64,000 nucleotides of DNA from an uncultured Acidimicrobiales bacterium (lineage in GTDB: Bacteria; Actinomycetota; Acidimicrobiia; Acidimicrobiales; Aldehydirespiratoraceae): assembly GCA_951812975.1 (NCBI GenBank), contig CATOTC010000001.1, positions 558,001 to 622,000 of the forward strand, given 5' to 3'. Positions 9,103 to 53,635 of the stretch are shown here, piece after piece. Position numbers and translations under genes: made by a program. Below the pieces are notes generated by a model, which was not told the DNA's origin, made no database searches, and worked only from the letters and a program-made list of their open reading frames with translations. Positions within the stretch are counted from its first letter, which is position 1, and every line of letters starts with the position of its first letter.

Positions 9103-9169
9103 GGCCGGTAAGCGTAGCGAGAATCGCCGAGACGTTGTACACCCAAGCTCTCTACGCGAGACTCCAACG

Positions 9170-11398: not shown

Positions 11399-11452
11399 CC
11401 GGTCGCCGGGCGCAGCCGGAGCCGCGGTAGTGCCGGGCCCGGGACACACACC

Positions 11453-11499: not shown

Positions 11500-11512
11500 C
11501 GGGAGAGCGGCG

Positions 11513-18079: not shown

Positions 18080-18080
18080 C

Positions 18081-36911: not shown

Positions 36912-37004
36912 GGCCCGAGCGGCCAGCCTGGGCCCGGGCGGCCCAATGAGCGAAGCGAACAAGAGCGGGAGGTGGAGCGAAGCGAACAAGAGCGGGAGAC
37001 GAAG
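36912..37004 (+). repeat. Intergenic repeat element, copy 1
   Basis: A GC-rich palindromic part (CCCGAGCGGCC...) followed by two 22-bp units GAGCGAAGCGAACAAGAGCG(GG) at 36948 and 36975, 27 bp apart. Copy 2 at 38382 has the same structure and orientation. Together the two copies flank the CoA-transferase gene. The rest of 36790-37045 shows no gene. Confidence 0.8.
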
Positions 37005-37045
37005 TGCTTGAGCGCAAAGAACGGGAGCGGGAGACAACGCCCTTC

Positions 37046-38305: not shown

Positions 38306-38381
38306 GACGCCAGACCATAGCCACTCCGACCAGAGGCCGAGCGGATTGACCCTGAACACGACCGTGCCCGAGCGAGGCCGT

Positions 38382-38473
38382 GACCCGAGCGGCCCGCCCG
38401 CGGCCGAGCGGCCCCGTGAGCGCAGCGAACAAGAGCGGGTAGCGGAGCGAAGCGAACAGGAGCGGAAGACAAC
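38382..38473 (+). repeat. Intergenic repeat element, copy 2
   Basis: Same architecture as copy 1: GC-rich CGAGCGGCC palindromes, then GAGCGCAGCGAACAAGAGCG at 38418 and GAGCGAAGCGAACAGGAGCG at 38445, again 27 bp apart. The 303-bp interval 38306-38608 contains only this element and the ribosome-binding site of the next gene. Confidence 0.8.
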
Positions 38474-38608
38474 CGGTGTCAGCGCAACTTCCTGTTCAAC
38501 CCGCGCACGTTCCTGGTCGAACTGTGCCGAAACACGAACGCGGCTTTGGCCTGTTGCGGGCTTCGCGGCACAATGGAGCACCAGCCAACGCCCCAGGAGC
38601 TACAAACG

Positions 38609-38914
38609 ATGGCCGAACTAAAACCCGGTGCCCGCTTCCAGTCCACGGTCTGCACCACGCAAGTGATCGTTGTGAAAGGCGACGGTGACGCCGAGTTGAC
38701 CTGTGGTGGCGCCGCGATGGTTGCCACTGGAACCGCCGAGATCAGCGGGAAGCCTGCCCCAGACGCAGCCGAGGGCACCCTGCTCGGAAAGCGTTACACG
38801 AACGCGGATGCAACCGTCGAACTGCTGGCCACCAAGGGTGGTGAAGGCTCGATTGCTGTATCCGGGACCCCTTTGAGCGTCGCCGAGCCGAAGACCCTGC
38901 CAGCTTCAGACTGA
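38609..38914 (+). CDS. Small conserved-looking protein before acyl-CoA synthetase
   Basis: 101 aa from the ATG at 38609, with AGGAG 11 nt upstream; the longer frame from 38546 lacks such a site. Two Cys (STVCTTQVIVV and ELTCGGAAM) in a beta-rich N-terminal half suggest a metal or disulfide site. Not recognised. It starts a three-gene operon with the acyl-CoA synthetase (17 bp gap) and crotonase (6 bp gap), so it may assist that pathway (inference). Confidence 0.7.
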   Translation: MAELKPGARFQSTVCTTQVIVVKGDGDAELTCGGAAMVATGTAEISGKPAPDAAEGTLLGKRYTNADATVELLATKGGEGSIAVSGTPLSVAEPKTLPASD

Positions 38915-38931
38915 GCAAATCTGGACCCGCC

Positions 38932-40464
38932 ATGAATCTGATGATGCTGCTGGAGATGGCGGCGGAGGGGTTGGGCGACCGAGTCGCAGTCGGTTCGCTG
39001 GAAGGCGGGCTCACCTACAGCGAGCTCTATGACCAGGCTCAGGCAGCGGCGGAACGTTTCCAAGCTGCGGACGGGGAACGGGTGGTGTTGTGCGACGAGT
39101 CGAGTCCGGCGGTGCCGATATCACTGTTCGGCGCGGCCGCCGCAGGCATGCCGTACGTGCCTCTCAACTATCGGCTTCCCGACGAAGACCTGCAGGCTCT
39201 GGCGCAGCGCAGCGCGCCGGGCGTTGCAATCACTGACGATCTCGGCGCGGTTCGACTCGCCGATGCGCAGGGCATTGAGACCATGACCCGCCGAGAGTTT
39301 CTCGAAGATCTCCACCGCGACGGAGTCCCGTCTGCCGTGACCGAGCGGCCTGCGGACCCTGAAGAGATCGCGGTGCTCTTGTACACGAGCGGCACGACCG
39401 GGGCCCCCAAGACAGCCGTCCTGCGCCACAGACACCTGGTCTCCTACATCCTGGGGGCGGTCGAGTTCATGGGGGCGGCCCCCGACGAGGCGACGATCGT
39501 GAGCGTGCCGCCCTACCACGTGGCCGGGGTCGCCGCCATGCTGTCGTCGGTGTACGCCGGACGCAGGATCGTGCAGCTCCCCAGTTTCGACCCCGACCTA
39601 TGGATCGATACCGTCGAGACCGAACAGGTGACCCATGCCATGGTGGTGCCCACCATGTTGGCCCGCATCGTTGAGGCGCTGGACGCCCGTGGCTCAGAAC
39701 CCATGCTCGGGCTTCGGGCCCTGTCCTATGGTGGAGGGAGGATGCCTCTGCCGGTGATCACCCGAGCACTCGAACTGTTTCCGATCACGTCATTCGTGAA
39801 CGCCTACGGCTTGACCGAGACCTCCTCGACCATCGCGGTATTGGGTCCTGACGACCATCGGTTGGCCCAATACAGCGAAGAACCCGCCGAGCAGCGGCGC
39901 CTCGCCTCAACCGGTCGTCCGCTGCCCGGTGTGGAACTGTCGATCCGCGACGAGGCAGGCGAGGAAGTCCCTGTGGGCGAGACCGGCGAGATCTTCGTGC
40001 GTGGTGAACAGGTGTCGGGCGAATACCTTGAAGCCGCTTCACCGCTCGTCGACGGCTGGTTCCCAACCCGCGACGGAGGCTTCATCGACGAGGCCGGCTA
40101 CCTGTTCGTCCAAGGTCGCAACGACGACGTGATCATCCGCGGAGGCGAGAACATGTCGCCGGGAGAGATCGAGGACGTGCTGCTCACCCACCCGGCGGTA
40201 AAGGAGGCTGCCGCAATCGGCGTCGCCGATGAACAATGGGGAGAGAAGGTGGTGGCCGTCATCGTGCTCGCCGACGAAGCGGCTGCTCCCGGTGCAGGAG
40301 TCGACGAAAGCGAGATCCAGGAACTGGTGCGCCGACGGTTGAGGTCGAGTCGGGTTCCCGCCCATGTTGTGGTGGTCGACGAACTTCCATACAACGACAC
40401 CGGCAAGCTCCTGCGCAGAGTGCTGCGCTCCCAGCACAGCCATCTGGGCGACCCGGACGGCTGA
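38932..40464 (+). CDS. AMP-binding acyl-CoA synthetase
   Basis: 510 aa. Signature LLYTSGTTGAPKTAV, YGLTETSS, GYL/TRDGGFIDEAGYLFVQGR hinge, and C-terminal NDTGKLLRR carrying the catalytic Lys. Activates a carboxylic acid to acyl-CoA through an acyl-adenylate. It is in an operon with a crotonase, suggesting a side-chain or ring degradation route. Substrate cannot be told. Confidence 0.92.
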   Translation: MNLMMLLEMAAEGLGDRVAVGSLEGGLTYSELYDQAQAAAERFQAADGERVVLCDESSPAVPISLFGAAAAGMPYVPLNYRLPDEDLQALAQRSAPGVAITDDLGAVRLADAQGIETMTRREFLEDLHRDGVPSAVTERPADPEEIAVLLYTSGTTGAPKTAVLRHRHLVSYILGAVEFMGAAPDEATIVSVPPYHVAGVAAMLSSVYAGRRIVQLPSFDPDLWIDTVETEQVTHAMVVPTMLARIVEALDARGSEPMLGLRALSYGGGRMPLPVITRALELFPITSFVNAYGLTETSSTIAVLGPDDHRLAQYSEEPAEQRRLASTGRPLPGVELSIRDEAGEEVPVGETGEIFVRGEQVSGEYLEAASPLVDGWFPTRDGGFIDEAGYLFVQGRNDDVIIRGGENMSPGEIEDVLLTHPAVKEAAAIGVADEQWGEKVVAVIVLADEAAAPGAGVDESEIQELVRRRLRSSRVPAHVVVVDELPYNDTGKLLRRVLRSQHSHLGDPDG

Positions 40465-40470
40465 GGTCTG

Positions 40471-41454
40471 GTGATGCAAGCCGTCCGGTGGTCATGGCGC
40501 CAAGCGCGGACTGAGGCGGCGTCACCGGACATCGACCGGACGGTCGGCGCCGCGGTCGGTGTGCCGGTGGTTGTGGTCGAACTCGAAGACCACCGAGGCA
40601 CCGAGATCGCCGAACGCCTGGCCCGGCTGCCCGTCGTGTCAATAGGGGTGGGAAGCAGCGCCGACAGGTGCTGGGACGTCCGCACCCAAGACCCAGACCC
40701 GATCATCGCAGGCGCTCTCTCAGCCCCTATGGCTGCGGTGACCGCCGCGCAGGTTCTGCGGGGCACCGCAGACCGGACCGTCGATGAAGCACTGCTGGTT
40801 GAATCGCTCGCCTACGCGACTCTGCAGTCAGGAGCAGAGTTCGCTTCCTGGCTGGCATCCCAGGGGCGTCGTGTACGCAACGACGACGGCCCACGGGTAC
40901 GGATCGAGGAGCACGACGACCACATCGAGGTGATCCTTGACCGGCCGCGGTTGCGCAACATGATCGATGCCCGAATGCGTGACGAGTTGATCGACGCCTT
41001 CTCCGCCCTGTCCCTCGGCGCGCCGCTGCCGATCCGCCTGCTGGGTGCGGGGCCCGCGTTCTGTGCGGGCGGCGACCTTGCCGAGTTCGGCACGGTAGCC
41101 GATCCGTTGACCGCGCACCTTCTGCGTTCCACAACCAACCTCGCGTCGCATCTGCATCGCATCGCGGAGAGGGTCACAACTCATGTGCACGGACCGTGTG
41201 TCGGTGCAGGCGTGGAGATGATGGCTTTCTGTCGTCGCGTCGTGGCACACCCCGACGCCTGGTTCCGGCTACCGGAGACCCGTATGGGGCTGATGCCCGG
41301 AGTGGGCGGGACCGTCAGTATTCCGGCTCGAATCGGGCGGCACCGCACCCTGGAGTGGCTGCTTCAAGACAGCACGATCGACGCAAGCACCGCGCTCAAA
41401 TGGGGTCTGATCGATTCGATCCAGGAGTCCGGGGAGGACTCCGGCGTTGACTAG
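40471..41454 (+). CDS. Enoyl-CoA hydratase/isomerase family protein with N-terminal half-domain
   Basis: 327 aa from GTG 40471 (ATG 40474 is equally possible). Residues about 145-325 form a crotonase: PAFCAGGDLAEFG for the first oxyanion hole and HVHGPCVGAGVEMMAF, ETRMGLMPGVGGT. Residues 1-135 resemble the C-terminal half of a second, incomplete crotonase (LSAPMAAVTAAQVLRG). A Glu is present in LPETRMG as in hydratases. It ends overlapping the convergent membrane-protein stop by 4 bp. Confidence 0.85.
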   Translation: MMQAVRWSWRQARTEAASPDIDRTVGAAVGVPVVVVELEDHRGTEIAERLARLPVVSIGVGSSADRCWDVRTQDPDPIIAGALSAPMAAVTAAQVLRGTADRTVDEALLVESLAYATLQSGAEFASWLASQGRRVRNDDGPRVRIEEHDDHIEVILDRPRLRNMIDARMRDELIDAFSALSLGAPLPIRLLGAGPAFCAGGDLAEFGTVADPLTAHLLRSTTNLASHLHRIAERVTTHVHGPCVGAGVEMMAFCRRVVAHPDAWFRLPETRMGLMPGVGGTVSIPARIGRHRTLEWLLQDSTIDASTALKWGLIDSIQESGEDSGVD

Positions 41455-42281
41455 CGACGGCTGAAACTCTCGCCGAGGCTGGAGCCTTCGAACCCGCTCG
41501 GGGCCATTCCCGATGTTGCGTAGAGGTACAGCGCTGCCTGGAACACTGCGTTCAGTGCCGTCATCACCACAACCACCACCGCGATCCAGACTACGCCGAC
41601 GGCGATACCCACGATGAGCCCAACCCCGCCGAGCGAACCGAACACGGCAATCAACAGAACCGCCGGCAGCATCGCCACAAATCCGAGGAGCCCGAACCCG
41701 ACTCGGGCTGCAAGGTTCTCACCCCACGTCGACTTGAGCAACGAACCTGAGGTCTTCAACCCTTCTATAGCGCCTTTGTCGTCGATCACGATCGCCGGGA
41801 CCACCAGGAAGGTCGCAACCTCCCAGGCCATGCCAACCATGCTGATCACGAACTGACCGAGCCAACCAGCCCGGTCGCGCAGTGCACGCAGGATCATCCC
41901 GACCGTGGCGGTCAGGATCGCCCAGGGAACCAGACCGGGGATCCGACTGAACGCCTTGCGGATCGCCGAACCGACCGTCGGGTCGCCGCCCGCGAGTCGT
42001 TCGTGGGCCCCCGCGACCAGGGCCCCGTTGAAGAAGACGCTGATCACACTCAGACCCAGGGCTGCCACGATCCCCACCAGCACCATCGCCGGGTTCGCGG
42101 AGGCTTCCTCGGCGCCTCCCGATTCGGTGCTGGCCGTCGCGAACACGACGAACAAGAGCGGAATCAACAAAGCTGCGGACACCAGAAACGACAGGACCGG
42201 AATCACCAGCAGTTCCCGGTCCTTCTTCAGCACTCCCCACGAGAGCTTCGCCAACTCGAACGTATTGCGAATCCTGCCCAT
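41451..42281 (-). CDS. DUF6159-like integral membrane protein
   Basis: 276 aa from the ATG at 42281, preceded by AGGAG. Six or so hydrophobic segments (for example LLVIPVLSFLVSAALLIPLL, and two Val/Ala-rich helices near the end) with a cytosolic N-terminus. The overall pattern, FELAKLSWGVLKKDRELL at the start, matches membrane proteins of the DUF6159 kind; no function known. It stands alone. Confidence 0.7.
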   Translation of the reverse strand: MGRIRNTFELAKLSWGVLKKDRELLVIPVLSFLVSAALLIPLLFVVFATASTESGGAEEASANPAMVLVGIVAALGLSVISVFFNGALVAGAHERLAGGDPTVGSAIRKAFSRIPGLVPWAILTATVGMILRALRDRAGWLGQFVISMVGMAWEVATFLVVPAIVIDDKGAIEGLKTSGSLLKSTWGENLAARVGFGLLGFVAMLPAVLLIAVFGSLGGVGLIVGIAVGVVWIAVVVVVMTALNAVFQAALYLYATSGMAPSGFEGSSLGESFSRR

Positions 42282-42375
42282 CGCCACTCCTTGTCTCGGT
42301 CGGTGAGTCAACTCCAAGCATAACGACCCCGAGTGACTCTGAACTCCAACTCTGTTGGTTCAACGAGCAGAGTGG

Positions 42376-43599
42376 TCAGCGGGGCTCGCGCGGCAGCCCG
42401 AGCACACGTTCGCCGATCACGTTGCGCTGAATCTGATTGGAGCCTCCATAAATGGTGTGCGCGCGGCTGTAGAGGAAGGTGCGCTGCTCATGGTCGATCT
42501 CATAGTCGGGAAGCTCATGATCGCCGAAACTCGGATGGCCGTTGTGCGCGTCGGACGACCCGACCATGGCACTCGCCCCACGGACCAGCATCGCCAACTC
42601 GCCCATTCGGCGATGCCACGACGCCCAATAGAGCTTGCCGATCGACATTTCGGGGCCCGGCACCCCGCCGCTCGTCATCGCAGTCAGCATTCGCAACTGG
42701 TTGAACCGCAGAATCTCCAATTCGACGAAGCTGCGGGTCAGTTCCTGACGCACGACCGGATCAGCCAACCGCCCATTGTCCTTGGCCAGAGCAACCAGAT
42801 CATCGAACTCCTGGCGATAACTGACCTGCTGCCCGAGCGTTGAAGCACCCCGCTCGAAGCCCAGAGTCCCCATCGCCACCTTCCAGCCGTTGCCGGCCCC
42901 GCCCACAACCAGAGACTCCTCGGTGTGGGCATCGGAGAAGAACGTCTCGTTGAACTCCGAACCGCCGGTGATCTGCACGATCGGACGAATCTCGATGCCC
43001 GGCTGGTCCATCGGCACCAACAGGTAACTCAACCCCGCATGGCGCTGAGAACCTGCTTCGGTGCGGACGACCATGAAGATCCACTGGGCGTACTGCGCCA
43101 GCGAAGTCCAGATTTTCTGACCGTTGACGACCCAACGCCCGTCAACAAGCTCAGCCCGGGTCTTGACATTGGCGAGATCAGAACCCGCGTCCGGCTCTGA
43201 ATATCCCTGGCACCAATAATCCTGCGCCGAGAGGATGCGGGGCACGAAACGGCGCTGCTGGGCCTCGCTGCCGAAAGCCATCAACGTCGGACCCAGCAGA
43301 GTCAGGCCCATGTTGGGCAGACGTCCGGGCGCGCGCGACTCGACGTAAGTCCGATGAAAGACCACCTGTTCAGCCAGCGAACAGGCCCGTCCGCCGATCC
43401 AGGCAGGGAAGTCGATCCCCAGCCAGCCGCCGGACGCCAACTCCTTCTCCCAGGCCCACTGGACCTCAACGGGTACGTCCTCCTGGCCAGTCCAACCCCG
43501 GCCCCGGTATGCGGCGAACTCCCCGACGCAGTGCTCTTCAATCCAGGTGCGAACCTCGTCAGCGAAGGCGTCGAGCGCGGGATCGTTCCAAGCATCCAT
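42376..43599 (-). CDS. Acyl-CoA dehydrogenase
   Basis: 407 aa flavoprotein of normal ACAD length: WCQGYSEPDAGSDLANVKTRA, GRWVVNGQKIWTS and the C-terminal YGGSNQIQRNVIGERVLGLP. It would introduce the alpha-beta double bond into an acyl-CoA and pass electrons to ETF. TACGCT lies 8 nt before its ATG. Operon partners are absent; the GS-like gene is divergent. Confidence 0.92.
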   Translation of the reverse strand: MDAWNDPALDAFADEVRTWIEEHCVGEFAAYRGRGWTGQEDVPVEVQWAWEKELASGGWLGIDFPAWIGGRACSLAEQVVFHRTYVESRAPGRLPNMGLTLLGPTLMAFGSEAQQRRFVPRILSAQDYWCQGYSEPDAGSDLANVKTRAELVDGRWVVNGQKIWTSLAQYAQWIFMVVRTEAGSQRHAGLSYLLVPMDQPGIEIRPIVQITGGSEFNETFFSDAHTEESLVVGGAGNGWKVAMGTLGFERGASTLGQQVSYRQEFDDLVALAKDNGRLADPVVRQELTRSFVELEILRFNQLRMLTAMTSGGVPGPEMSIGKLYWASWHRRMGELAMLVRGASAMVGSSDAHNGHPSFGDHELPDYEIDHEQRTFLYSRAHTIYGGSNQIQRNVIGERVLGLPREPR

Positions 43600-43698
43600 G
43601 ACCCGCGAGCGTACCCATGCCCTGCGCCTTCCCCGAATTCGGGGCCCGCTCCGAATCCTTGCCTCTTATCCTGTAGTGGTTGAATGTCAGGAGGTCAG

Positions 43699-45012
43699 AT
43701 GGGCGAATATGAGCGGGTCCGTGTGTTGTGGCCAGACCATCTCGGGATCGCCAGGGGCAAGTACCTGCCCGCCGACATTGCGCACCTGGGCACGGGTCAC
43801 TGCGCTTCGGTGTTCGGGCTGGGTTACGACCGCAGCGTGATACCCGCGCCCGGGTCCTTCATGCTCGAGGGGCTCAAAGACGTTCAAGCCCGACTCGATC
43901 CGCAGACCCTCAGACCGAGCTGGGAGGACGACGGCACCAAGGTCGCCGTCGGCCACCTCGACTTCGAGGGCAAGCCATTCAGCTACTCGGCGCGCCACGC
44001 ACTGCAGAAGGCGATCGCCGCCTGGCAACAGCTCGGATACAACCCCCGCATCGGGTTCGAACTCGAGGCCTATGTGCTGGAGCCCGACGGCACCGGAGGA
44101 TTGAGGCTGAAGGCCGCACCACGGTCCTATGTCTATGGAACCGGCGTCACCGCGGACCCGGCAGGTGTCATTGACGAGGTCATGGCGGTCTCGGCCGCCT
44201 GCGGCCTGAAGCTCGAGTCGGTGAACGCCGAATTCGACGAGTCCCAATTCGAGTTGACCCTGCGGCACGACGAGGCCCTCAGAGCCGCCGACGATGCCTT
44301 CCTGTTTCGGGTGATGGCCCGAGAAATCGCAATCAAATCGGGGCACGACCTCACCTTCCTCGGCAAACCGCTCCACGGTCTGAGCGGTTCGGGCCTTCAT
44401 GTGAACATCTCTCTCGACGGCCCCGACGACCAGAACGCCTTCGTCGACGACGGAGCTGCCGACGGTCTGTCGGCGCTGGCGAAGGGCGCGCTGGCCGGGC
44501 TGTGCGCGCACCACAGGGCGATGACCGCACTGTGCGCGCCGACCGTCAACGCCTACCGGCGGCTGCGCCCCGGTGAGTTCGCCGGATACTGGGCCAACTG
44601 GGGGTACGAGCATCGTTTCGCCGCCAACCGGGTTCCCGACGTCCGCGGGCCTGCCACCCGCATCGAGAGCCGACTCGCGGACGGCAGCGCCAACATCCAT
44701 CTCGCCGCGGCGACCGTGCTGCAGGCTGCGCTGCTCGGTGTGACCGCGCAGCTTGAATGCCCCGACCCGTTGACGACCGACGGTTTCGAGGAGATAAACA
44801 CAGACGTGTCGAGTGCCGACAACCTTCACGATGCACTCACCTACCTGGCCGACGACTCAGCGCTGATGAACGCTGTCGGAGCCGACCTGTGCGCCAACTT
44901 CCTGTTCATCAAACACGCCGAATGGGACCGCTACGCGGCTGCCGGTGGCAGCTGCGAACCGTCAGACAACCCGACGGAATGGGAGATCGCCGAGTACCTC
45001 AACTACCACTAG
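43699..45012 (+). CDS. Divergent glutamine synthetase-family enzyme
   Basis: 437 aa from ATG 43699, which has AGGAGG 4 nt upstream; ATG 43684 without such a site is the alternative. The fold is recognisable from GFELEAYVLE, SQFELTL, GLSGSGLHVNISL and GSANIHLAAATVLQAA. Several usual GS residues are changed: the His-x-His after GSG is His-x-Asn, and the phosphate-binding RxxP segment reads EHRFAANRVPD. This fits the GlnT/PuuA-type gamma-glutamyl ligases or other amide ligases more than ammonia assimilation. It faces the NicX-like operon, stops overlapping by 4 bp. Confidence 0.8.
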   Translation: MGEYERVRVLWPDHLGIARGKYLPADIAHLGTGHCASVFGLGYDRSVIPAPGSFMLEGLKDVQARLDPQTLRPSWEDDGTKVAVGHLDFEGKPFSYSARHALQKAIAAWQQLGYNPRIGFELEAYVLEPDGTGGLRLKAAPRSYVYGTGVTADPAGVIDEVMAVSAACGLKLESVNAEFDESQFELTLRHDEALRAADDAFLFRVMAREIAIKSGHDLTFLGKPLHGLSGSGLHVNISLDGPDDQNAFVDDGAADGLSALAKGALAGLCAHHRAMTALCAPTVNAYRRLRPGEFAGYWANWGYEHRFAANRVPDVRGPATRIESRLADGSANIHLAAATVLQAALLGVTAQLECPDPLTTDGFEEINTDVSSADNLHDALTYLADDSALMNAVGADLCANFLFIKHAEWDRYAAAGGSCEPSDNPTEWEIAEYLNYH

Positions 45013-46052
45013 CGGCTGCGGAGACCTGGTGACAGATCACCGTCGACTACCACAGCCTCACCGTCCAATGTGACGGTGCACGACCTCATCGGCAGGTCGA
45101 AATGGCCTCGGCAGAATCTGCCTGCCACCTCGTTGGCGCCCGTCGAGTAGAGGAAGTTGCCGGCGAAGGCCCGCAGTTCCGTACCGTTGAAATCGGCTTT
45201 GTCCCACATCGCCATGGCGTCCCAGCGGGCCGCTTCGTTCATGCCCCAGCCAACATGGCTGACCGCGTAGGCCTCCGGTTCGTCGAACGACGACAGGTAG
45301 GAGCGGAACAGTTCGGCGTCAACCCCCGAACCTTTGATCTCGGTCACGTAGTCCTCGTGGACGATCAATTCGATCGTGTCGCGCAGGTACTGCTTGAAAG
45401 TCAGATTCACGTCGCCCGGGGCCAGAACGATCGTGCCGTCGACACTGCGGGCTGCCGGGAAACACAGAACCAGGCCACCGGGCCAGTGAGCTATCGAACC
45501 TGGTTCGGTGCACCAACCGAACGATCCGGCCACAACAGCCCCGTCGAGCCGCACCGTGAGGTCTGTGCCCGCGCCAGATGTCACCCTCATCACGTCGGCC
45601 GCCTTGAGCAGTTCGACACCGGAGTTCACCCGCTCAGCCAGAGTCGGGTCGTGCGGCCAGCGTTCGACGTTCTCGGGATGCTCGTTGGAGATCATCAGCA
45701 CCCGGGCGCCAGCGGCGAGAACCTCTGCCAACTCCGGAGCATGCAGCAATCCCTCCACGGTGCAGTCGGCGACGAAATCAGCGGTGCTCAACGCAGCGAC
45801 AGCCGACCGGTTGTTCTGCAAGGCCTGCGACGCCCCGGTAGAGCGGATCGGCACGGGACCAGGGTTGGACGGCGTGGTCAGCACCACGTCGACCACGGCT
45901 GCGCCGAGCTTTTCGAGCGCCAAGCGGGCAGTCGAGGCGACCACCGGGTTGCTTGTGGTCTCAGCCAGTACCACCGCCACATCGTCCTGTCCCACTTCAC
46001 AAGCGTTGAACTGTTGGGCGTAACGCTCAACCCAACGCCATTGCGTGTTCAT
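45009..46052 (-). CDS. NicX-like (M29 aminopeptidase-fold) iron dioxygenase
   Basis: 347 aa from ATG 46052, overlapping the flavoprotein stop as ATGA. It resembles 2,5-dihydroxypyridine 5,6-dioxygenase NicX and M29 aminopeptidases; candidate metal ligands are His in AVSHVGWGMNEAARW and the His-x-Asp in RGHFDLPM near the C-terminus, as reported for NicX. If NicX-like, it opens an N-heterocyclic ring. An M29 peptidase would show two metal-bridging Glu residues; I do not see a clear set. Third gene of the operon. Confidence 0.68.
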   Translation of the reverse strand: MNTQWRWVERYAQQFNACEVGQDDVAVVLAETTSNPVVASTARLALEKLGAAVVDVVLTTPSNPGPVPIRSTGASQALQNNRSAVAALSTADFVADCTVEGLLHAPELAEVLAAGARVLMISNEHPENVERWPHDPTLAERVNSGVELLKAADVMRVTSGAGTDLTVRLDGAVVAGSFGWCTEPGSIAHWPGGLVLCFPAARSVDGTIVLAPGDVNLTFKQYLRDTIELIVHEDYVTEIKGSGVDAELFRSYLSSFDEPEAYAVSHVGWGMNEAARWDAMAMWDKADFNGTELRAFAGNFLYSTGANEVAGRFCRGHFDLPMRSCTVTLDGEAVVVDGDLSPGLRSR

Positions 46053-47251
46053 GTTCGGACCTCGGGGTACAGACCGCTGCGACCGAGACGCTCTAGGCAG
46101 ACCTCCACGCTCCACGGCAGCATCGCCGCGCCGCAGCGGGCGTCACGGTAGAACTGTTCGAGCCGCGACGGGCGCAGCATCGAGCGGCCGCCGCAGACGC
46201 GGATCGCGGTCGAGGCCAGATCGGGTGCGCCCTCCATCGTCGACACGACCGAACTCCAAGCCCGACGCACCTCGGCGGGCGACGGATCGACACCGACTTC
46301 ACCGAGCACTCGATAACACAACGACTGGGTCTCGTCGTACTTCAAGTTCATCGCCGCCCAACCCTGCTGCTTCAACGGATGGTCACGCCGCGCGGTCGGG
46401 CCGCCGTCGCCGATCAGGTACTCAGCGGTCGCGTCGAGGATCGCACGCATCAGACCCAGATAGGCGAACGACAGAGTCATGTAGAAATACGGCCAGCGGC
46501 GCGCTGCCTGATCGAACATTCCGGGCGGAATCCACTCATGCTCCAGTGGAACAAAAACGTCGTCGAGCACCAGAGTCCTGGAGTCGGTCGCCCGCATCCC
46601 GAGCGGATCCCAGTCGCCCTCGAGCACCACCCCGTCGGAATTAGCGGGTACACCCAGGAAGCGCACCCGGGGGTCGCCCTCGACCATGCACACGATGTTG
46701 TGGACATCAGCCGCGCCGCTCAACGAAGCGAATATCTTCCGACCCGTGACCCTGTAACCACCGTCGACGGGCACCGCTCGCGTGGCGAACCCTTCAGTAG
46801 CGCCCGCTGCTATCCCCTCCGAGAACGGCTGACTGTGAACCATGCCGTCGACCACGATTCCTCGGCGCAGCATCGCGCGGCGCTCCACGAGCGCGGCGCG
46901 TTCCTCGGTGGTCAGGTCCATGTCATCGGCGATCTGTCCAACCAGCAGAGTCGTGGCGACATGCATATTGAACGTCAGAGCGGTGGCCGCACAATGACGC
47001 CCGAGTTCCTCGGCCGCCAGCGCATAGCCGACGAAGTCGGCGCCCAACCCTCCGTCGGCGGTGGGGATGCAGATGCCGAGCAGGCCGGCTGCCCGCAGAT
47101 CGGCCCAGTTCTCGAAAGGGAACTGCGCCTCGCGGTCGTATTCGACCGATCGTTTGGCGAACACCGGTCCCAGCTCCGCGATCCGCTCGACAAGCTCGAT
47201 ACGCGCCCCGGTTCTAATGCCTGAGTCCTGGACTCGCGTCGGCGTGGTCAT
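46049..47251 (-). CDS. Acyl-CoA dehydrogenase-fold flavoprotein
   Basis: 400 aa. ACAD fold: PTADGGLGADFVGYALAAEELG, GYRVTGRKIFASLSGAAD and a C-terminal RVCGGRSMLRPSRLEQFYRDARCG typical of the branch that includes flavin monooxygenases and nitroalkane or dibenzothiophene-type oxygenases (inference). It is translationally coupled on both sides by ATGA overlaps, upstream with the alpha/beta hydrolase and downstream with the NicX-like gene. Confidence 0.85.
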   Translation of the reverse strand: MTTPTRVQDSGIRTGARIELVERIAELGPVFAKRSVEYDREAQFPFENWADLRAAGLLGICIPTADGGLGADFVGYALAAEELGRHCAATALTFNMHVATTLLVGQIADDMDLTTEERAALVERRAMLRRGIVVDGMVHSQPFSEGIAAGATEGFATRAVPVDGGYRVTGRKIFASLSGAADVHNIVCMVEGDPRVRFLGVPANSDGVVLEGDWDPLGMRATDSRTLVLDDVFVPLEHEWIPPGMFDQAARRWPYFYMTLSFAYLGLMRAILDATAEYLIGDGGPTARRDHPLKQQGWAAMNLKYDETQSLCYRVLGEVGVDPSPAEVRRAWSSVVSTMEGAPDLASTAIRVCGGRSMLRPSRLEQFYRDARCGAAMLPWSVEVCLERLGRSGLYPEVRT

Positions 47252-48063
47252 GGGCGCACGGTACCGGAGTCATCGAGAAAACGCCTGACAGCCGAGTTGA
47301 ACTCCTCGGGGGCCTCGCATGCGCTGAGATGACCGACCCCGCCGATCACCACGAGCTCAGCGTTCCGAATGCGGTCGGCCAACAACCTGCTGTAAGCCAA
47401 CGGGGTCTCCTCATCGAGCTCGCCGACGACCACCAGCGTCGGTGCGGCGATCTCACCGAGGCGAGCGCTCACATCATGGGTCGGAAGGCATTCGCAAGCC
47501 GCTCGCAAACCCGCCGAGGTGATCCGGGAGAAAGACGCCACAGCCGCCGCCAAAGGGTCGCCGCCGAAATCCGGACCCGCCACCGAACACAGAACCTCCT
47601 GCGCGAAGTCTGCCGGGGTCAACCCTGCCTCGAGCGGGGCGAGGCGGGCTTCGAGCCAGGCGTCGGGATCGGTGCCGTCAGCGCCGAACGCCGCGCTGGT
47701 ATCGGCCAGGATCAGGCTCGCGACCCGATCGGGATGCTCAAGGGCCAAGTGCAGAGCCTGCTGGCCGCCGAACGACAACCCGCAGACATGAGCCTGCTGG
47801 ACTTCGAGCACATCGAGCAGACTCGCAGCTGCATCCGCGATCGCGCCGAAGGTCAGCGGTTCGACGGCTGACGACATCCCATAGCCCGGCATGTCCCAGG
47901 CCACACAACGCCATCGGTCCGACAGGTCTGCAAGTTGGGGATCCCAACTGGTGCGGGTGAGTCCCAGACCGTGGAGGAACAGCAGCACCTCACCCTGGCC
48001 CGCTTCGCGCCAGGCCACCGGCGCACGGTCCACATCAATCAGAGGCATCGGAATCAGCGGCAT
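47248..48063 (-). CDS. Alpha/beta hydrolase (enol-lactonase/deformylase-like)
   Basis: 271 aa. Nucleophile elbow GLSFGG, oxyanion HGLGLT, Asp in VVGELDEETP and His in GGVGHLSACEAPE. The family includes PcaD and the N-formylmaleamate deformylase NicD. First gene of the coupled three-gene operon. Beside a NicX-like gene, a NicD-like amide or enol-lactone hydrolysis is attractive but unproven. No pathway hydroxylase or maleamate amidase is seen nearby. Confidence 0.85.
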   Translation of the reverse strand: MPLIPMPLIDVDRAPVAWREAGQGEVLLFLHGLGLTRTSWDPQLADLSDRWRCVAWDMPGYGMSSAVEPLTFGAIADAAASLLDVLEVQQAHVCGLSFGGQQALHLALEHPDRVASLILADTSAAFGADGTDPDAWLEARLAPLEAGLTPADFAQEVLCSVAGPDFGGDPLAAAVASFSRITSAGLRAACECLPTHDVSARLGEIAAPTLVVVGELDEETPLAYSRLLADRIRNAELVVIGGVGHLSACEAPEEFNSAVRRFLDDSGTVRP

Positions 48064-48101
48064 CGGTCTCGCACAGTCCTGTCCCCCAGCTAGCCCCCCA
48101 G

Positions 48102-49136
48102 CTAACCGACCGAGAACTCGATCTTCATCCGGTGATCGTAGATGGCCCCGGGGTCGAGCCGCGTTGACGGGAAGTGGGGTTGGTTGGGCGAGTCCGGGAA
48201 GTCCTGCGTCTCGAAGCAGTAGCCCGCGAACTGGCAGTATTCGGCACTGCCCTTGCCGATGTCGGTTCCGTTGAGATAGCCCCCCGTGTAGAAGTGCATT
48301 CCCGGCGCGGTCGTCGACACCTCGAGCCGTCGACCAGTGGAGTGGTCGAACGCCGCGGCTGCGCGGCGCATCGTGGCGGGTTGGCCCTGCAGCACCCAGT
48401 TGAAGTCGAAACCCCGCTCAGGATCGTCGAGTTCGCTGATCGCGTCGCCGATGCGGTGCGGGACCCGCAGGTCGTAGGGCGTGCGCGCGACACTGCTGAT
48501 CTCGCCGGTGGGGATCAGCTCGGAGTCCGCGGGAGTGTAGGAGTCAGCGTTGATCTGAACATGCTGGTCGACCACATCGCCGCTGTCGTGGCTCGCCAGG
48601 TTCCAGTACGCGTGGTTGACCAGATTGACGACGGTCGGTGCTGTCGTTTCGGCCGTCATGACGATTCCGAGCGAATCCGGGCCGAGCGTGTATTCGACAT
48701 TGGCTGTGACTTCACCGGGATACCCCTGATCGCCGTGGGGAGAGACCGTCGAGAACCGGACGGCGTTGTCGGTTCGTTCAACATCAATCCTCCAAAGGTG
48801 CTTGTTGAATCCGACGGGCCCGCCGTGGAGATGGTTCGGGCCGTCGTTCAAGCCGACCTGGTACTGCTTTCCGTCGAGGGTGAACCGACCGTCCTTGATC
48901 CGGTTCGCGAACCGGCCACAGGTAGCACCGAAATATGCGCTGTCCGCCTCCATCGCGGCGAGGTCGCCGTTGGCGAGCACAACATCGGCGACGTTCCCGT
49001 CCCGGTCCGGCACCCAGAGCTCCAACAGACGCGCCCCGTAGTCGCAGAACACGGCCTTGAGCGCGCCGCACCTCAGCGTCACCCTGTGCGCGGCTTCGCC
49101 GTTGACCTCTCCGATCGGTTCAACTTCGATACTCAT
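48102..49136 (-). CDS. galM: Aldose 1-epimerase (galactose mutarotase)
   Basis: 344 aa. GRFANRIKDGRFTLDGKQY, NLVNHAYWNLASH with the catalytic His and a C-terminal CFETQDFPDSPNQPHF carrying the catalytic Glu: the GalM pattern. It interconverts alpha and beta anomers of hexoses. ACGGAG upstream of the ATG is a good ribosome-binding site. No sugar transport or kinase gene is adjacent. It is divergent from the acyl-CoA synthetase. Confidence 0.92.
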   Translation of the reverse strand: MSIEVEPIGEVNGEAAHRVTLRCGALKAVFCDYGARLLELWVPDRDGNVADVVLANGDLAAMEADSAYFGATCGRFANRIKDGRFTLDGKQYQVGLNDGPNHLHGGPVGFNKHLWRIDVERTDNAVRFSTVSPHGDQGYPGEVTANVEYTLGPDSLGIVMTAETTAPTVVNLVNHAYWNLASHDSGDVVDQHVQINADSYTPADSELIPTGEISSVARTPYDLRVPHRIGDAISELDDPERGFDFNWVLQGQPATMRRAAAAFDHSTGRRLEVSTTAPGMHFYTGGYLNGTDIGKGSAEYCQFAGYCFETQDFPDSPNQPHFPSTRLDPGAIYDHRMKIEFSVG

Positions 49137-49173
49137 GGGTTTGCTCCGTTGCCGGTGCTGTAGCCGACAGGTC

Positions 49174-49179
49174 TACGCT
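49174..49179 (+). promoter_or_regulatory. -10 element of the acyl-CoA synthetase at 49186
   Basis: TACGCT, 6 nt before a GTG start; TTGCCG lies 19 bp further upstream as a possible -35. Confidence 0.5.
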
Positions 49180-49185
49180 TCAGGG

Positions 49186-50700
49186 GTGCTTACCAGGATC
49201 GCGCGTCGGGTGGCTGTGGACTTCGCCGACACTACGGCATACCAGACGCAGCAGGGTTGGGGGATCACCTATGGCGAACTCGACCGGGCCGCCGACGAAG
49301 CCGCTGCGGGACTGGCGGCCGGCGGTATCGGTGAGCGCGACGCGGTGGCTCTGGTGCTCGAATCGACCGTTGACTATGTGGTGCTGTTCCTGGCCCTGGC
49401 CCGCCTGGGTGCTGTCACATCCGGCATCAACCCGAAGCTCACCGCCCGCGAGATCAACGCTTGCCTGGACGTGTTCGAGCCGGGACTGGTCATTGTCGGC
49501 GATCGCCTGTCGGACACGGTCGACGGCGACCGGTTCGTCTGTGAGACGCTCATTCCGGGTTCGAGCTCCGAGACTGTCGCGGCGGAGTTCAGGATCGCCG
49601 GAGCCGGAGCTCCCGGACTGCTGGCCGATGATCCCGACCGCCCGGTATGCGTGTGCTTCACAAGCGGTCCCACCGGTCTTCCGAAAGGCGCTTGGTACAG
49701 CAACCGGCAGCTTGAGCGGATCGTCGAACTCGACACCGGCGGCGCCTGGGGCGGCGGCGGGCACGGCATCAGTTCCACCCAGTTCGCGCATGTCGGTTTC
49801 ATGACCAAGCTGCCCTGGCTGCTGGCCAGCGGCAGGACCACCCACCTGCTCGACCGCTGGTCTGCGGGGCCGGTGCTGCAGCTCATTTCGGAACATCGCA
49901 TGCCCGCGGTGACCGGCGTGGCGCCGCAGATCGCTCTTATGCTCGCACACCCCTCTAGCCGCGAACTCGACTTCTCCGCGGTGCAGGCCATCGTCGTCGG
50001 TGGTGCCGCCTCTCCCCCGGCACTGGTGCGCGAGGCCAGAAAGAGGTTCGGCGCGCCCTACTCGATTCGCTATTCGTCCACCGAGAGCGGTGGGATCGGC
50101 CTCGGTACCGACCTCAATGCCGACGACGAGGAAGCGCTGAACACCATCGGCCGGCCCCGCCCCGGTGTAGAGGCAGCCATACGCACCGAAGCTGGCGAAC
50201 CGGTCGCGGAGGGCGAGATCGGCGAACTTTGGCTGCGTTCAGACTGCATCATGTCGGGCTATTGGAAGGATCCACAGGCGACTGCCGAGACTCTTGTCGA
50301 CGGCTGGCTGCGAACCGGCGACCTGGCCCGGGTCGACGCCGCCGGTTGCTACCGGCTGGCCGGGCGTCGCAAGGAGATGTTCATTCGCGGCGGTTACAAC
50401 GTCTATCCGATGGAGGTCGAGTCGATCCTCGGCAACCACCCGGCGATCGCGGAGATCGCTGTGGTCGGCCGGCCCGACGAGGTGATGGGAGAGATCGGTG
50501 TGGCGGTGATCGTCGTGTCCGGCGGGCATGAAGCGCCCACGCTGGCGAGCCTGCGGGACTTCGGCTCCGTCGACCTTGCTGCGTACAAGCTTCCAGAAGC
50601 GGTCAGGGTCACGACGCAGTTGCCGCGCAACGCCACCGACAAAGTCGACCGGCGGGCACTCACCGATTTCGAACGCCGGACTCACGACCCCAGCAACTAG
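49186..50700 (+). CDS. AMP-binding acyl-CoA synthetase
   Basis: 504 aa from the GTG at 49186, chosen because a -10 hexamer stands 6 nt before it and because the frame up to 49057 runs into galM. The adenylation signature reads CFTSGPTGLPKGAW, Pro replacing the usual Thr. GYWKDPQATAET, TGDLARVDAAG and the C-terminal PRNATDKVDRR with the catalytic Lys are present. Substrate unknown; no neighbours of the same strand. Confidence 0.9.
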   Translation: MLTRIARRVAVDFADTTAYQTQQGWGITYGELDRAADEAAAGLAAGGIGERDAVALVLESTVDYVVLFLALARLGAVTSGINPKLTAREINACLDVFEPGLVIVGDRLSDTVDGDRFVCETLIPGSSSETVAAEFRIAGAGAPGLLADDPDRPVCVCFTSGPTGLPKGAWYSNRQLERIVELDTGGAWGGGGHGISSTQFAHVGFMTKLPWLLASGRTTHLLDRWSAGPVLQLISEHRMPAVTGVAPQIALMLAHPSSRELDFSAVQAIVVGGAASPPALVREARKRFGAPYSIRYSSTESGGIGLGTDLNADDEEALNTIGRPRPGVEAAIRTEAGEPVAEGEIGELWLRSDCIMSGYWKDPQATAETLVDGWLRTGDLARVDAAGCYRLAGRRKEMFIRGGYNVYPMEVESILGNHPAIAEIAVVGRPDEVMGEIGVAVIVVSGGHEAPTLASLRDFGSVDLAAYKLPEAVRVTTQLPRNATDKVDRRALTDFERRTHDPSN

Positions 50701-50724
50701 AACCCTTTGAAACGTCTCGGCAGA

Positions 50725-51762
50725 CTAGCGGCGGGGGCGATAGGAGCGCCGCTTCTCCCGTTCGCGCTGGGCTTCCAGTTCAGCGACCAGTGCGACGTAA
50801 CGGTCAACTCGCTTGGCGTCGAGGGCACCGGCGGCCACCGCGGCAGAAATAGCGCACCCAGGCTCGGATCGGTGGACACAGTCATGGAAGCGACAACCGG
50901 TCGCCAACTGCTCGAGATCGCCGAAAACGAGATCCAGAGCGTGCTCAGCCTCCCACAGCCCGACGGAGCGGATACCGGGCGTGTCGAGCACGAGACCCCC
51001 GTCTGCGGGCAGCAGCACGAGCTGCCGTGCGGTCGTCGTGTGCCGGCCCTTGCTGTCAACGTTGCGGACCGGGCCGACCTCAAGGCGTTCCTCACCGACC
51101 AGGGCATTGACCAGCGCTGATTTGCCCACGCCGCTGGCTCCGATCAGCGCCAACGTGCGCCCCGCCCCGATGTGCCCAACGAGTTCGTCAAACCCCTTCC
51201 CGTCCACGATGCTGGTGGTCACAACTGGGATGTCGAGGCACACGGAACGAACGATCGCCTCGCTCTCGTCACCGGCCACTGCGGCGTCGGCCTTGCTCAA
51301 GATCACCAGAGGTGCAGCCCCGCTGTTGATCGCCACAACCAGCATGCGCTCGAGACGACCCGGCGGAAGTGGCCGGTCGAGCCCGTGCACGACACCAACG
51401 ACCTCAACGTTGGTGGCCAGGACCTGCTCGAGGTCGCGCTGCGCGGGATCCCGTCGGCTGACACTGGTCGTGCGTTCGAGGATCGTGGAGATCACCGGGC
51501 CGAGCCCCTCCTGCTCACCGATCTCCACCCAGTCGCCGGTCACCGGCGCCACCTGGCCCTGGGCACGGAGCGAGTCTGAGAGCGCTCGGACGATTCCCGC
51601 CTCGGTCATGACGTCGCATTCGCCTCGGTCGACACGGACCACGCGTCCCAGGCTGGAAGTGTCGCTTACCACGCCGGCGGGCGCCCGCGTATCGAGCCCC
51701 CAGGGGCCGAGTTCGTTCGTCAAGGTCCTCGTATTCTCGCCGCGCTCCTCATCAACATCCAC
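50725..51762 (-). CDS. rsgA: Ribosome small-subunit-dependent GTPase A
   Basis: 345 aa from GTG 51762; TTG 51723 (332 aa) is a real alternative. The open frame runs on to 52656, but that part is antisense to the molybdoenzyme. The GTPase is circularly permuted as in all RsgA: OB-fold, then G4 ILSKAD, G1 IGASGVGKSALV, G3 DTPGIRS and a C-terminal zinc knuckle CRFHDCVHRSEPGC. It acts late in 30S assembly. Divergent from the gene at 51875. Confidence 0.93.
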   Translation of the reverse strand: MDVDEERGENTRTLTNELGPWGLDTRAPAGVVSDTSSLGRVVRVDRGECDVMTEAGIVRALSDSLRAQGQVAPVTGDWVEIGEQEGLGPVISTILERTTSVSRRDPAQRDLEQVLATNVEVVGVVHGLDRPLPPGRLERMLVVAINSGAAPLVILSKADAAVAGDESEAIVRSVCLDIPVVTTSIVDGKGFDELVGHIGAGRTLALIGASGVGKSALVNALVGEERLEVGPVRNVDSKGRHTTTARQLVLLPADGGLVLDTPGIRSVGLWEAEHALDLVFGDLEQLATGCRFHDCVHRSEPGCAISAAVAAGALDAKRVDRYVALVAELEAQREREKRRSYRPRR

Positions 51763-51874
51763 AGCTACCTGAATCTCTTGAGAAATCGGACGAAACTTCC
51801 AACCGGGTTTCGGACCGATTCGACGACTGGAGACGTTAGAAATAGACACAGGCAATCGCCGACGGAGGACACCC

Positions 51875-53590
51875 GTGAACACCTCGCAGCACGACGACAC
51901 CGACAAGACCACCGATGGGACCAACGGCACCGACGGCACAGGAATCGACGTCTCCGAAACGCGCCTGAGTTCCGGCGCGGACCGACTCTGGTGGCAGGGG
52001 GCGCTCGCCGGCGTCGCCGCGGGGGGAGTCGCCTTGATGTTCGGGCAGCTTGTGGAGGCGCGGAGCGAGAACATCCCCGGACTCGTTCTCGGCATGGGCG
52101 AATGGATCCTCGACATCACGCCGGGGTGGGCAGCCGAGGAGAGCATCGAGAATCTCGGGTCCACAGGAAAGGCATCCCTGCTGCCGGGGATCACCGTCGT
52201 CGCCCTGCTGGTGGCCGCCGCGCTCGGCAACGCCTCGCTTCGCTTCTCCCGCAGGATCGGGATCTGGGGGTTCACGGCGTTCGGCCTGCTCGGTGGCTTC
52301 ACCACGGCACGCAATCCGACCTCGCCCGCGGTGGCTAGCTGGTTCTGGTCGCTGGTGGCAGCCGCTCTGGGAATCGCCACACTCCTGTTCCTGCTGGACC
52401 GTCTCATGGGTCGGGCGGACCAGCCGGCCGCCTCCGGGCCTTTCGCAGATCCCCTCGACCCTCCTGCGAGTCGTCGGGCGTTCCTGGGTTGGACCGCGGG
52501 CGCCGGTGCCGTAGCCGTCGGCGGTTTCGCGCTCTCCAAGGCGATAGCCCCCAAGTCCGCCGCAGAGACCGCCCGTGAGAACATCGTCTTGAGCAACATC
52601 TCCACGACGACGACCACCGCCACCACTACAACGGCCACCGAAGCGACAACGACCACCGCGCCCGTGTCAGAAGCAACAGTGACAACTCAAGCGATCACAG
52701 ACATCGACGGGATCAGTTCCTATATCACGCCGAACGATTCGTTCTACCTGATCGACACCGCTCTGAGGCCGCCCCATGTCGACCCCAACGACTGGTCACT
52801 CGAGATCAAGGGCATGGTCGACAACCCCTACACCCTCACCTGGGACGAGTTGATCGCCATGCCGATGGAGGAGCACGAGATCACCCTCTCATGCGTGTCC
52901 AACCCCGTCGGCGGACCTCTGGTCGGCAACGCCAAATGGCTCGGAGTTCCCATCGTCACGCTGATGGAGCGGGCCGGGATCCAACCCGGCGCCGACCAGT
53001 TCGTCGGCAAGTCGATCGACGACTGGACCGCCGGATTCCCGACCGCTCGCCTCTACGACGGACGCACCGCTCTACTGGCGATCGGCATGAACGGCGAACC
53101 GTTGCCGATTTCGCACGGCTTCCCCGCACGGCTCATCGTCGCCGGGATCTACGGCTACGTCTCTGCGGTCAAGTGGGTGACCGAGATCGAGATGACCCGC
53201 TGGGAGGACTTCGACGGGTACTGGATCGACAAGGGCTGGTCGAAGCTGGGCCCGATGAAGACGATGTCGCGCATCGACGTTCCACGCTCCGGTTCCTCAG
53301 TCCCGGCGGGCGAGGTGGCTCTGGCCGGTGTGGCATGGTCGCCGCCCAGAGGCATCCATGCAGTAGAGGTCTCTGTCGACGACGGCCCCTGGTCGCCCTG
53401 CGATCTGGCGATTCCCGGCAACGACGAGAACTGGGTCCAGTGGCGCACAACTTGGAACGCCGCGTCCGGGCGGCACCGGATCACCGTTCGGGCCCTCGAC
53501 GGCACAGACGAGATTCAACCCAGAGGACCCAAGTCTGTCGCTCCCGATGGTGCAGAGGGTTGGCATCAGGTGTCGGTCAACGTCATATAG
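51875..53590 (+). CDS. Membrane-anchored sulfite-oxidase-fold molybdoenzyme
   Basis: 571 aa from a GTG with GGAGGA 6 nt upstream. Residues about 35-175 carry four hydrophobic helices; a fifth follows a twin-Arg-less RRAFLGWTAGAGAVAVGG. A Thr-rich linker (about 230-270) leads to the molybdopterin domain, with the Mo-ligating Cys in ITLSCVSNPVGG and GFPARLIVAGIYGY, then a dimerisation domain (VSVDDGPWSPC). YedY/sulfite-oxidase relatives act on S- or sulfoxide substrates outside the membrane. No haem partner gene is adjacent; helices might supply the electron route. Confidence 0.85.
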   Translation: MNTSQHDDTDKTTDGTNGTDGTGIDVSETRLSSGADRLWWQGALAGVAAGGVALMFGQLVEARSENIPGLVLGMGEWILDITPGWAAEESIENLGSTGKASLLPGITVVALLVAAALGNASLRFSRRIGIWGFTAFGLLGGFTTARNPTSPAVASWFWSLVAAALGIATLLFLLDRLMGRADQPAASGPFADPLDPPASRRAFLGWTAGAGAVAVGGFALSKAIAPKSAAETARENIVLSNISTTTTTATTTTATEATTTTAPVSEATVTTQAITDIDGISSYITPNDSFYLIDTALRPPHVDPNDWSLEIKGMVDNPYTLTWDELIAMPMEEHEITLSCVSNPVGGPLVGNAKWLGVPIVTLMERAGIQPGADQFVGKSIDDWTAGFPTARLYDGRTALLAIGMNGEPLPISHGFPARLIVAGIYGYVSAVKWVTEIEMTRWEDFDGYWIDKGWSKLGPMKTMSRIDVPRSGSSVPAGEVALAGVAWSPPRGIHAVEVSVDDGPWSPCDLAIPGNDENWVQWRTTWNAASGRHRITVRALDGTDEIQPRGPKSVAPDGAEGWHQVSVNVI

Positions 53591-53635
53591 TGTGCTGGCA
53601 CTCCGCCAACTACTGGGAATATTCTGGGGGCCTCA

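Follow-up and report, generated by a model that had tools for sequence, protein, structure and literature searches.

The window analyzed here, a stretch of 64,000 nucleotides from an uncultured Acidimicrobiales bacterium (GenBank assembly GCA_951812975.1, contig CATOTC010000001.1, positions 558,001 to 622,000), contains a three-gene operon encoding a relative of the 2,5-dihydroxypyridine dioxygenase NicX (P0001), a flavoprotein of the acyl-CoA dehydrogenase (ACAD) fold, here termed ACADf (P0002), and an α/β-hydrolase (P0003). Sequence comparison leads us to suggest, with moderate confidence, that the operon may constitute an oxygenolytic module, in which a monooxygenase and the NicX-like dioxygenase would open a ring other than that of 2,5-dihydroxypyridine. 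The NicX-like/flavoprotein/hydrolase set recurs in Actinomycetota, Alphaproteobacteria, and plasmids of Hyphomicrobiales, and the grouping of the NicX-like gene with ACADf exceeds chance.

Among solved structures, P0001 matched NicX (7cn3, 37% identity, E = 1.7e-57); four other matches found up to E = 1 were at chance level (0.056 or weaker), and no Pfam or NCBIfam model matched at E 0.01. A model of P0001 built with 20 locus sequences (pLDDT 82.9) superimposes on 7cn3 with a TM-score of 0.86, compared with about 0.56 (0.55-0.58) for the M29 peptidases PepS and AmpT. Judged by sequence and modeled fold, P0001 is a true NicX relative, as the initial annotation of this DNA had supposed, and homology makes it very probably a ring-cleaving dioxygenase.

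Two sides can be distinguished among the relatives of this protein, a near group of 84 stretches, the window included, and a classic NicX side of 14 stretches. The near group consists of an actinobacterial set (58 stretches: the window and 57 of the 59 scan loci, with L056 and L060 set apart), whose titles are mostly Acidimicrobiia, Acidimicrobiales, or Acidimicrobiaceae and in a few cases just "bacterium", Actinomycetota, or Actinomycetes; an alpha set (21: L056, from an Acetobacteraceae metagenome-assembled genome (MAG), and 20 stretches from genomes of the same class); two further actinobacterial stretches (L069 and L070); and three stretches of Hyphomicrobiales plasmids (L144, L145, and L148). 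The scan of the alpha class gave 47 match places, 31 of them inside 30 stretches that were taken; the remaining 16 include a partial match of 50% identity (G526). Not tallied were L060, of which 41 residues matched, L127, which duplicates the gene of L056, L146, which is in none of the trees, the short search stretches L061-L068 and L076-L113, and 23 family genomes. A maximum-likelihood tree quickly inferred from 98 rows separates the 82 near-group rows from the 16 classic ones with an SH-aLRT support of 99.

According to PMC7910607, which like the other papers cited here is represented by extracts of its text, NicX of Pseudomonas putida KT2440 defines a subtype of iron dioxygenases, with 2,5-dihydroxypyridine as its one reported substrate, and cuts the C5-C6 bond of this compound. 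Its iron ligands are His265, Ser302, His318, and Asp320, and Arg293 is needed to hold the metal; Glu177 bonds N1 and O1 of the substrate, His189 bonds O1, and the E177A variant retains 2.7% activity (PMC7910607). When the metal ligands were compared, as the initial annotation had proposed, the four ligands and the supporting Arg proved to be kept in P0001 (H266, S303, H317, D319, and R294 in window numbering) and in 84/84 aligned near-group rows. His105 is present in 84/84 of these rows and His189 in 80/84, with Tyr in the other 4. The near group differs from NicX at position 177, which is filled by Ser (59 rows), Gly (13), Val (8), Thr (3), or Ala (1), the classic-side residues being Glu (8), Gln (6), and Ser (2) in 16 rows including 7cn3. 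The stretch from position 177 to His189 is gap-free in the alignment rows printed. Similarly, Cys76 is replaced by Gly in 84/84 near-group rows, and Glu308 is never Glu there. Since the lactam clamp Glu177 is lost, the near-group enzymes probably act on a substrate other than 2,5-dihydroxypyridine. The earlier proposal of a different heterocycle can be upheld to the extent that a different substrate is likely; that this is a heterocycle is plausible, and a carbocyclic aromatic compound is also possible. The partners differ from those of NicX as well, being ACADf and another hydrolase, and not NicC, NicD, NicE, and NicF.

The Pfam acyl-CoA dehydrogenase domains of P0002 bear out its initial description as an ACAD-fold flavoprotein distinct from NicC. 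Its closest solved proteins are 5gj7/5z8t (E = 1e-34; 28% identity to the closest), the function of which is known from entry titles only ("flavin-containing monooxygenase" for 5z8t), and KijD3 (3e-17). In a Foldseek search with the P0002 model (pLDDT 84.1), the list was headed by 5gj7, 5z8t, KijD3, and TdsC, some of the chains containing indole; dehydrogenase entries appeared from rank 12, and some DszC entries stood above most dehydrogenases. The motifs WDpLGMRxT and RDaRCGaxMlPWs are kept in 59 aligned rows. What we take to be the usual position of the ACAD catalytic Glu (R+9 in the RDA motif) is occupied by Leu378, and Glu383, five residues further on, is nearly invariant. We consider ACADf rather likely to be a monooxygenase. 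It shares with the group D monooxygenases (IacA, TdsC/DszC, and KijD3) the ACAD fold, the length of 400 amino acids, the N and M domains of Acyl-CoA_dh, and, in some clusters, a flavin reductase nearby (3/21 alpha and 3/3 plasmid stretches); it differs from them by the identity given above and by the C-terminal motif MlPWs, and IacA is likened to it by description only. In the extracts of the cited papers, IacA is an ACAD-fold group D enzyme for which IacG is presumed to be the flavin reductase (PMC7225977), group D enzymes act as hydroxylases of aromatics or amines (PMC6165268), the ACAD family includes the "Type II" indigo-forming oxygenases, with lengths of 387-416 amino acids (PMC4577076), and the known indole oxygenase IifC is styrene-monooxygenase-like and belongs to group E (PMC9871250, PMC7225977). 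Three alpha stretches of one clade without an ACADf match (L130, L133, and L134; L130 family-tested) have a gene for a class-A FAD monooxygenase, which fits a hydroxylation step. In L130 and L134 there is also a small protein that we take to be YciI-like.

The coupling of the three genes (Table 1), noted in the initial annotation, is real, since both ATGA overlaps can be read from the sequence: gccc-atga-cc at the hydrolase/ACADf junction (47251-47248) and aac-atga-ac at the ACADf/NicX-like junction (46052-46049). The longest NicX-like open reading frame (ORF) begins with GTG at 46115; since the closest relatives align from the ATG at 46052, translation probably begins there. A fourth gene had been overlooked, together with a wider set of partner genes: a glutamine-synthetase-like (GS-like) ligase (P0004), convergent with the NicX-like gene and overlapping its 3' end by 4 bases. 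The module is flanked in the window (37046-43599 and 49057-50700) by genes for a CoA-transferase-like protein, two AMP-dependent CoA-ligase-like proteins, an enoyl-CoA-hydratase-like protein, and a second ACAD, the CoA ligases and the hydratase being named by reading. Several of these flanking genes are syntenic in L002 and L003, and their membership in the pathway is possible either way.

Table 1. Genes of the NicX-like locus (positions in the window)
Gene	Position	Strand	Features	Proposed role
α/β-hydrolase (P0003)	47248..48063	minus	271 aa; Pfam Abhydrolase_1 7.5e-26	hydrolysis of the ring-cleavage product, as deformylase or amidase
ACAD-fold flavoprotein ACADf (P0002)	46049..47251	minus	400 aa; Pfam Acyl-CoA_dh_N/M/1	reductase-dependent group D monooxygenase
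NicX-like non-heme Fe(II) dioxygenase (P0001)	45009..46052	minus	347 aa; kinship to 7cn3; S177 replaces Glu177	ring-opening enzyme
GS-like ligase (P0004)	43684..45012	plus	Pfam Gln-synt_C 1.6e-74	γ-glutamylation of an amine

The hydrolase P0003, aligned with 50 relatives, scored 171.8 bits with the NCBIfam model PcaDC and 150.6 bits with PcaD, both under the cut-offs, and its best named kin are of the PcaD type. The initial comparison with NicD did not hold at the level of orthology: in alignments of 250-256 columns, P0003 shares 23-26% identity with three classic-locus NicD proteins, two more comparisons being partial or insignificant, and the NicD type occurs in 0/84 near-group stretches. 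As stated initially, no maleamate amidase or maleate isomerase gene (nicF- or nicE-like) was found, the search covering window positions 37001-54000 and not the rest of the genome.

The ligase P0004 reached 201.9 bits with the GGputSyn model (cut-off 650). Its identity is 44-47% to GS-like proteins whose genes neighbor P450 genes in Novosphingobium and Ruegeria, compared with about 30% to a GS-like protein of a Delftia plasmid that adjoins a glutamine amidotransferase and a ring-hydroxylating dioxygenase. By its sequence relationships, the GS-like gene may be part of a second, separable amine module. The block on the Novosphingobium plasmid (L153, 7668-15784) consists of P450, GS-like, aldehyde dehydrogenase (ALDH), acetoacetate-decarboxylase-family, and FAH genes, and that on the Ruegeria megaplasmid (L154, 6755-10281) of P450, GS-like, and glutamine amidotransferase genes; neither stretch has an annotated NicX-like gene. 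These two blocks resemble a P450-based form of the aniline-type γ-glutamylation pathway. With that pathway (AtdA1/TdnQ, NpaA1; extracts of PMC11335346), part of the actinobacterial set shares a GS-like gene together with a class I glutamine amidotransferase; the differences are the distance of P0004 from the Delftia protein and the fact that a P450, not a Rieske oxygenase, accompanies P0004-type genes in the blocks seen.

Genes around the NicX-like genes were called by a codon-usage caller, and clusters were named by reading and by some family searches. The counts in Table 2 come from hidden Markov models built from these clusters and scored on those very stretches, with thresholds and family labels set by us. 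The threshold for the presence of ACADf was 300 bits or more; its counts are lower bounds, because weaker matches occur in three near-group stretches (L012, 234 bits; L025, 133 bits; L123, 265 bits) and several contigs are short.

Table 2. Stretches with each gene family near the NicX-like gene (ACADf counts are lower bounds)
Family	Actinobacterial set (58)	Alpha set (21)	Further actinobacterial (2)	Plasmids (3)	Classic side (14)
ACADf	51	13	1	3	0
Hydrolase	40	16	1	3	1
GS-like	29	1	0	3	1
Flavin reductase	0	3	0	3	1
Alpha-type CoA ligase	0	11	0	0	0
PHBH-OYE type (L122 with the OYE part only)	3	2	0	0	0
LigB	16	0	0	0	0
NicD	0	0	0	0	5
NicF	1	0	0	0	6
NicE	1	0	0	0	2
Mo-hydroxylase (near group: L023 and L122)	1	1	0	0	9

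The gene order varies between lineages. Many stretches of the actinobacterial set have hydrolase-ACADf-NicX-GS, several alpha stretches have NicX-hydrolase-ACADf-CoA ligase, and a PHBH-OYE fusion gene precedes ACADf-NicX in L053 and L055 and, with the hydrolase between fusion and ACADf, in L042. On the Ensifer and Aminobacter plasmids the deposited annotation lists NicX ("peptidase M29"), ACADf, hydrolase, TetR, and GS-like genes; these are followed in Ensifer by a flavin reductase and then an APC permease, and in Aminobacter by a LysR-annotated gene with a flavin-reductase-like stretch and then an APC permease. In the Aminobacter stretch (L145), the flavin reductase match of the tally is this LysR-annotated ORF (17677-18855), and the annotated flavin reductase (11224-11859), directly upstream of NicX, is a second, different gene. 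The hydrolase is missing in 18 stretches of the actinobacterial set, nine of which hold an ALDH gene upstream of ACADf-NicX; among these nine, a different α/β-hydrolase is found in four and an amidase in three.

Several other arrangements were observed. A block of PuuD-like hydrolase, GS-like, glutamine amidotransferase, LigB (HpaD-like), P450, and ADC genes (around 1-6700) is conserved beside ACADf-NicX in L010, L013, L026, L032, and L058, with a Liv-type ABC transporter where the contig continues. Genes for M81 (MlrC-like) metallopeptidases lie near the NicX-like genes in L056, L121, L123, and L133 (L121, the sole one tested, 205.5 bits, under the cut-off), and a role of such a protein as an alternative amidase is possible. 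A plasmid of Rhodococcus pyridinivorans from a quinoline bioreactor (L146, 8983-9996) has a NicX-like gene with Gln177, annotated as hypothetical, among genes for a Rieske dioxygenase, an isochorismatase-family protein, a "protocatechuate 3,4-dioxygenase", a C-N hydrolase, and a racemase-family protein. Finally, an ACADf relative of 42.5% identity is located beside XisH/XisI on a Dolichospermum plasmid (L147, 7971-9218), in a stretch without an annotated NicX-like gene.

The proposed module would work as follows. ACADf, supplied with reduced flavin by a separate reductase, would hydroxylate an aromatic or N-heteroaromatic compound. Then the NicX-like Fe(II) enzyme, whose site and fold are assigned by homology, would split the ring beside the hydroxyl, most likely at an N-CH=C(OH) unit; since a small residue stands in place of the Glu that grips the lactam side, its substrate would be bigger than 2,5-dihydroxypyridine or otherwise unlike it. 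The α/β-hydrolase would remove the formyl or acyl part. In the last step, the weakest of the scheme, the freed aromatic amine might be taken by the GS-like ligase and, in the relatives, by other enzymes of the amine or anthranilate type.

The neighboring genes point tentatively to an aromatic amine, for example anthranilate, as the product. Amine-linked families (GS-like, PHBH-OYE type, LigB, or 3-hydroxyanthranilate dioxygenase) occur in 41/82 stretches, L069 and L070 being left out of this count, or in 40 without L122; GS-like genes account for 33. In particular, 3-hydroxyanthranilate 3,4-dioxygenase adjoins the module in L024 (277.7 bits, cut-off 220) and is represented by a cluster mate in L035. 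Full PHBH-OYE fusions were found in four stretches (L042, L053, L055, and L118), that of L118 scoring 1290.6 bits against a cut-off of 1078 with the model "salicylyl-CoA 5-hydroxylase/oxidoreductase"; this fusion has what we assume to be the architecture of 2-aminobenzoyl-CoA monooxygenase/reductase. The latter enzyme has been described together with a CoA ligase for anthranilate (extracts of PMC3534580). A CoA ligase accompanies the fusion beside the module in L118, the fusion stands alone in L042, L053, and L055, and L122 has a CoA ligase and an OYE-like ORF of 381 amino acids only. The likeness to this pathway is limited by the L118 ligase, which matches general acyl-CoA ligase models only, and by the window's genome, in which the fusion was not found.

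A more specific version of the same scheme, in which the near group is an indoxyl (3-hydroxyindole) 2,3-dioxygenase giving N-formylanthranilate, is doubtful. The N-CH=C(OH) unit that NicX cuts in 2,5-dihydroxypyridine, with N-formyl and carboxylate groups as the outcome, is also present in indoxyl. ACADf would make the 3-hydroxylated indole, the NicX-like enzyme would cleave N1-C2H=C3(OH), and the hydrolase would yield anthranilate and formate; the fused benzene ring of indoxyl sits where 2,5-dihydroxypyridine has its lactam carbonyl, and the small residue 177 would give room for it. Against this version, no indole-specific gene conserved across the stretches was found, and the ALDH-bearing loci better fit a semialdehyde. 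Next to the module, a tryptophan-2,3-dioxygenase-like gene is present in L126 (172.7 bits, under 390.7), and a gentisate-dioxygenase-like gene in L145 (304.7 bits, under 442.1). In the latter stretch, the gentisate-dioxygenase-like and FAH genes (8239-10289) are located upstream of the C-N hydrolase, flavin reductase, NicX, and ACADf genes, making L145 a candidate locus of a route from indole through anthranilate to gentisate. The extracts of PMC6221969 mention that N-formylanthranilate and a gentisate branch were described for indole breakdown in old reports.

A number of observations weigh against the proposed module and its amine product. The tree contains long branches that, according to a warning of the tool, meet at the split between the near group and L135/L071, which are the two classic-side rows carrying Ser177; this residue is thus also found in 2/16 rows outside the near group. 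Structure comparison by VIA-align ties true dehydrogenases with monooxygenases. No flavin reductase gene lies beside P0002 in the window, none is near in the 58 actinobacterial-set stretches, and the window's own genome has one PF01613 elsewhere. The nine ALDH stretches without the hydrolase suit an aldehyde product better than a formamide. Half of the stretches are without any amine-linked family, LigB and GS-like proteins are not specific for anthranilate, and GS-like genes are also found next to P450 genes in stretches without an annotated NicX-like gene. A search of the window's own genome found no LigB, no match to the ADC gene (this search had no positive control), and, for the PHBH-OYE fusion, nothing beyond partial OYE-like matches.

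Among the alternatives, the degradation of a substituted hydroxypyridine, for instance hydroxypicolinate, by a variant nicotinate or picolinate route is rather unlikely. The conserved iron site with His105 and, in most rows, His189 would suit it, as would the Mo-hydroxylase genes near the module in L023 and L122; these two are, however, the sole cases in 84 near-group stretches, compared with 9/14 on the classic side, NicE (1/84), NicF (1/84), and NicD (0/84) are almost absent, and the lactam clamp is lost. Another alternative, also unlikely, is that the NicX-like enzyme cleaves a hydroxylated carbocycle of the aminophenol or hydroquinone type; the resulting semialdehyde would be processed by HpaE-like ALDH and HpaG-like FAH proteins, the hydrolase acting later. 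Without Glu177 the contact to ring N1 is gone, the nine hydrolase-less stretches have their ALDH upstream of ACADf-NicX, and one ALDH and one FAH scored 489.7 bits with HpaE and 191.5 bits with HpaG, albeit under the cut-offs of 638 and 276. Yet the ALDH and FAH may serve the LigB-type dioxygenase, near in 16/58 stretches of the actinobacterial set, and the extracts of PMC7910607 give no NicX substrate besides 2,5-dihydroxypyridine.

A true acyl-CoA dehydrogenase function of ACADf, with the genes forming a CoA-dependent route similar to β-oxidation, is improbable. The Leu at the presumed position of the catalytic Glu (though Glu383 follows), the flavin reductases in some clusters, and the kinship to 5gj7/5z8t and KijD3 speak against a role that is suggested by the ACAD Pfam domains, by fold alignments with Z up to 39.5 to true ACADs, by the CoA ligase near the module in 11/21 alpha stretches, and by the CoA ligases, enoyl-CoA-hydratase-like gene, and second ACAD that flank the module in the window. 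Ordinary nicotinate-type breakdown of 2,5-dihydroxypyridine with non-orthologous partners has the kinship to NicX in its favor and is very improbable, given the separate clade, the loss of Glu177 in 84/84 rows, and the near absence of nic partners; the classic nicotinate pathway is disfavored on the last two grounds. The identity of the NicX-like gene as an M29 aminopeptidase, under which relatives are recorded as "peptidase M29" or "leucyl aminopeptidase", is rejected on the grounds of the Pfam result and of the fold, and we suggest that these relatives are misnamed.

The host genome (3.02 Mb in six contigs, 93% complete) has one NicX-like match and 16 P450 matches, the best of 41% identity. 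The nearest relatives in the genome scan are the Acidimicrobiaceae MAGs L002 and L003, with NicX-like proteins of 91% and 89% identity. At E 1e-20, NicX-like matches occur in 23/51 genomes of the family, in 3/6 genomes of the genus, the own genome included, and, with distant relatives counted, in 8/396 genomes sampled from the phylum.

In the open-licence PMC literature searched, a module of NicX and an ACAD flavoprotein is not named. According to the extracts of PMC6221969, a review of indole degradation, iif should not be the only cluster for this process, and no functional gene was yet known for the gentisate branch. If the product is anthranilate, these points would become testable, and if the indoxyl reading is true, the genes described here would provide an oxygenolytic route of indole degradation other than iif. 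Should the proposed module itself prove true, a clade that combines the iron site of NicX with a rebuilt pocket and has a conserved flavoprotein partner would carry NicX chemistry over to other rings.

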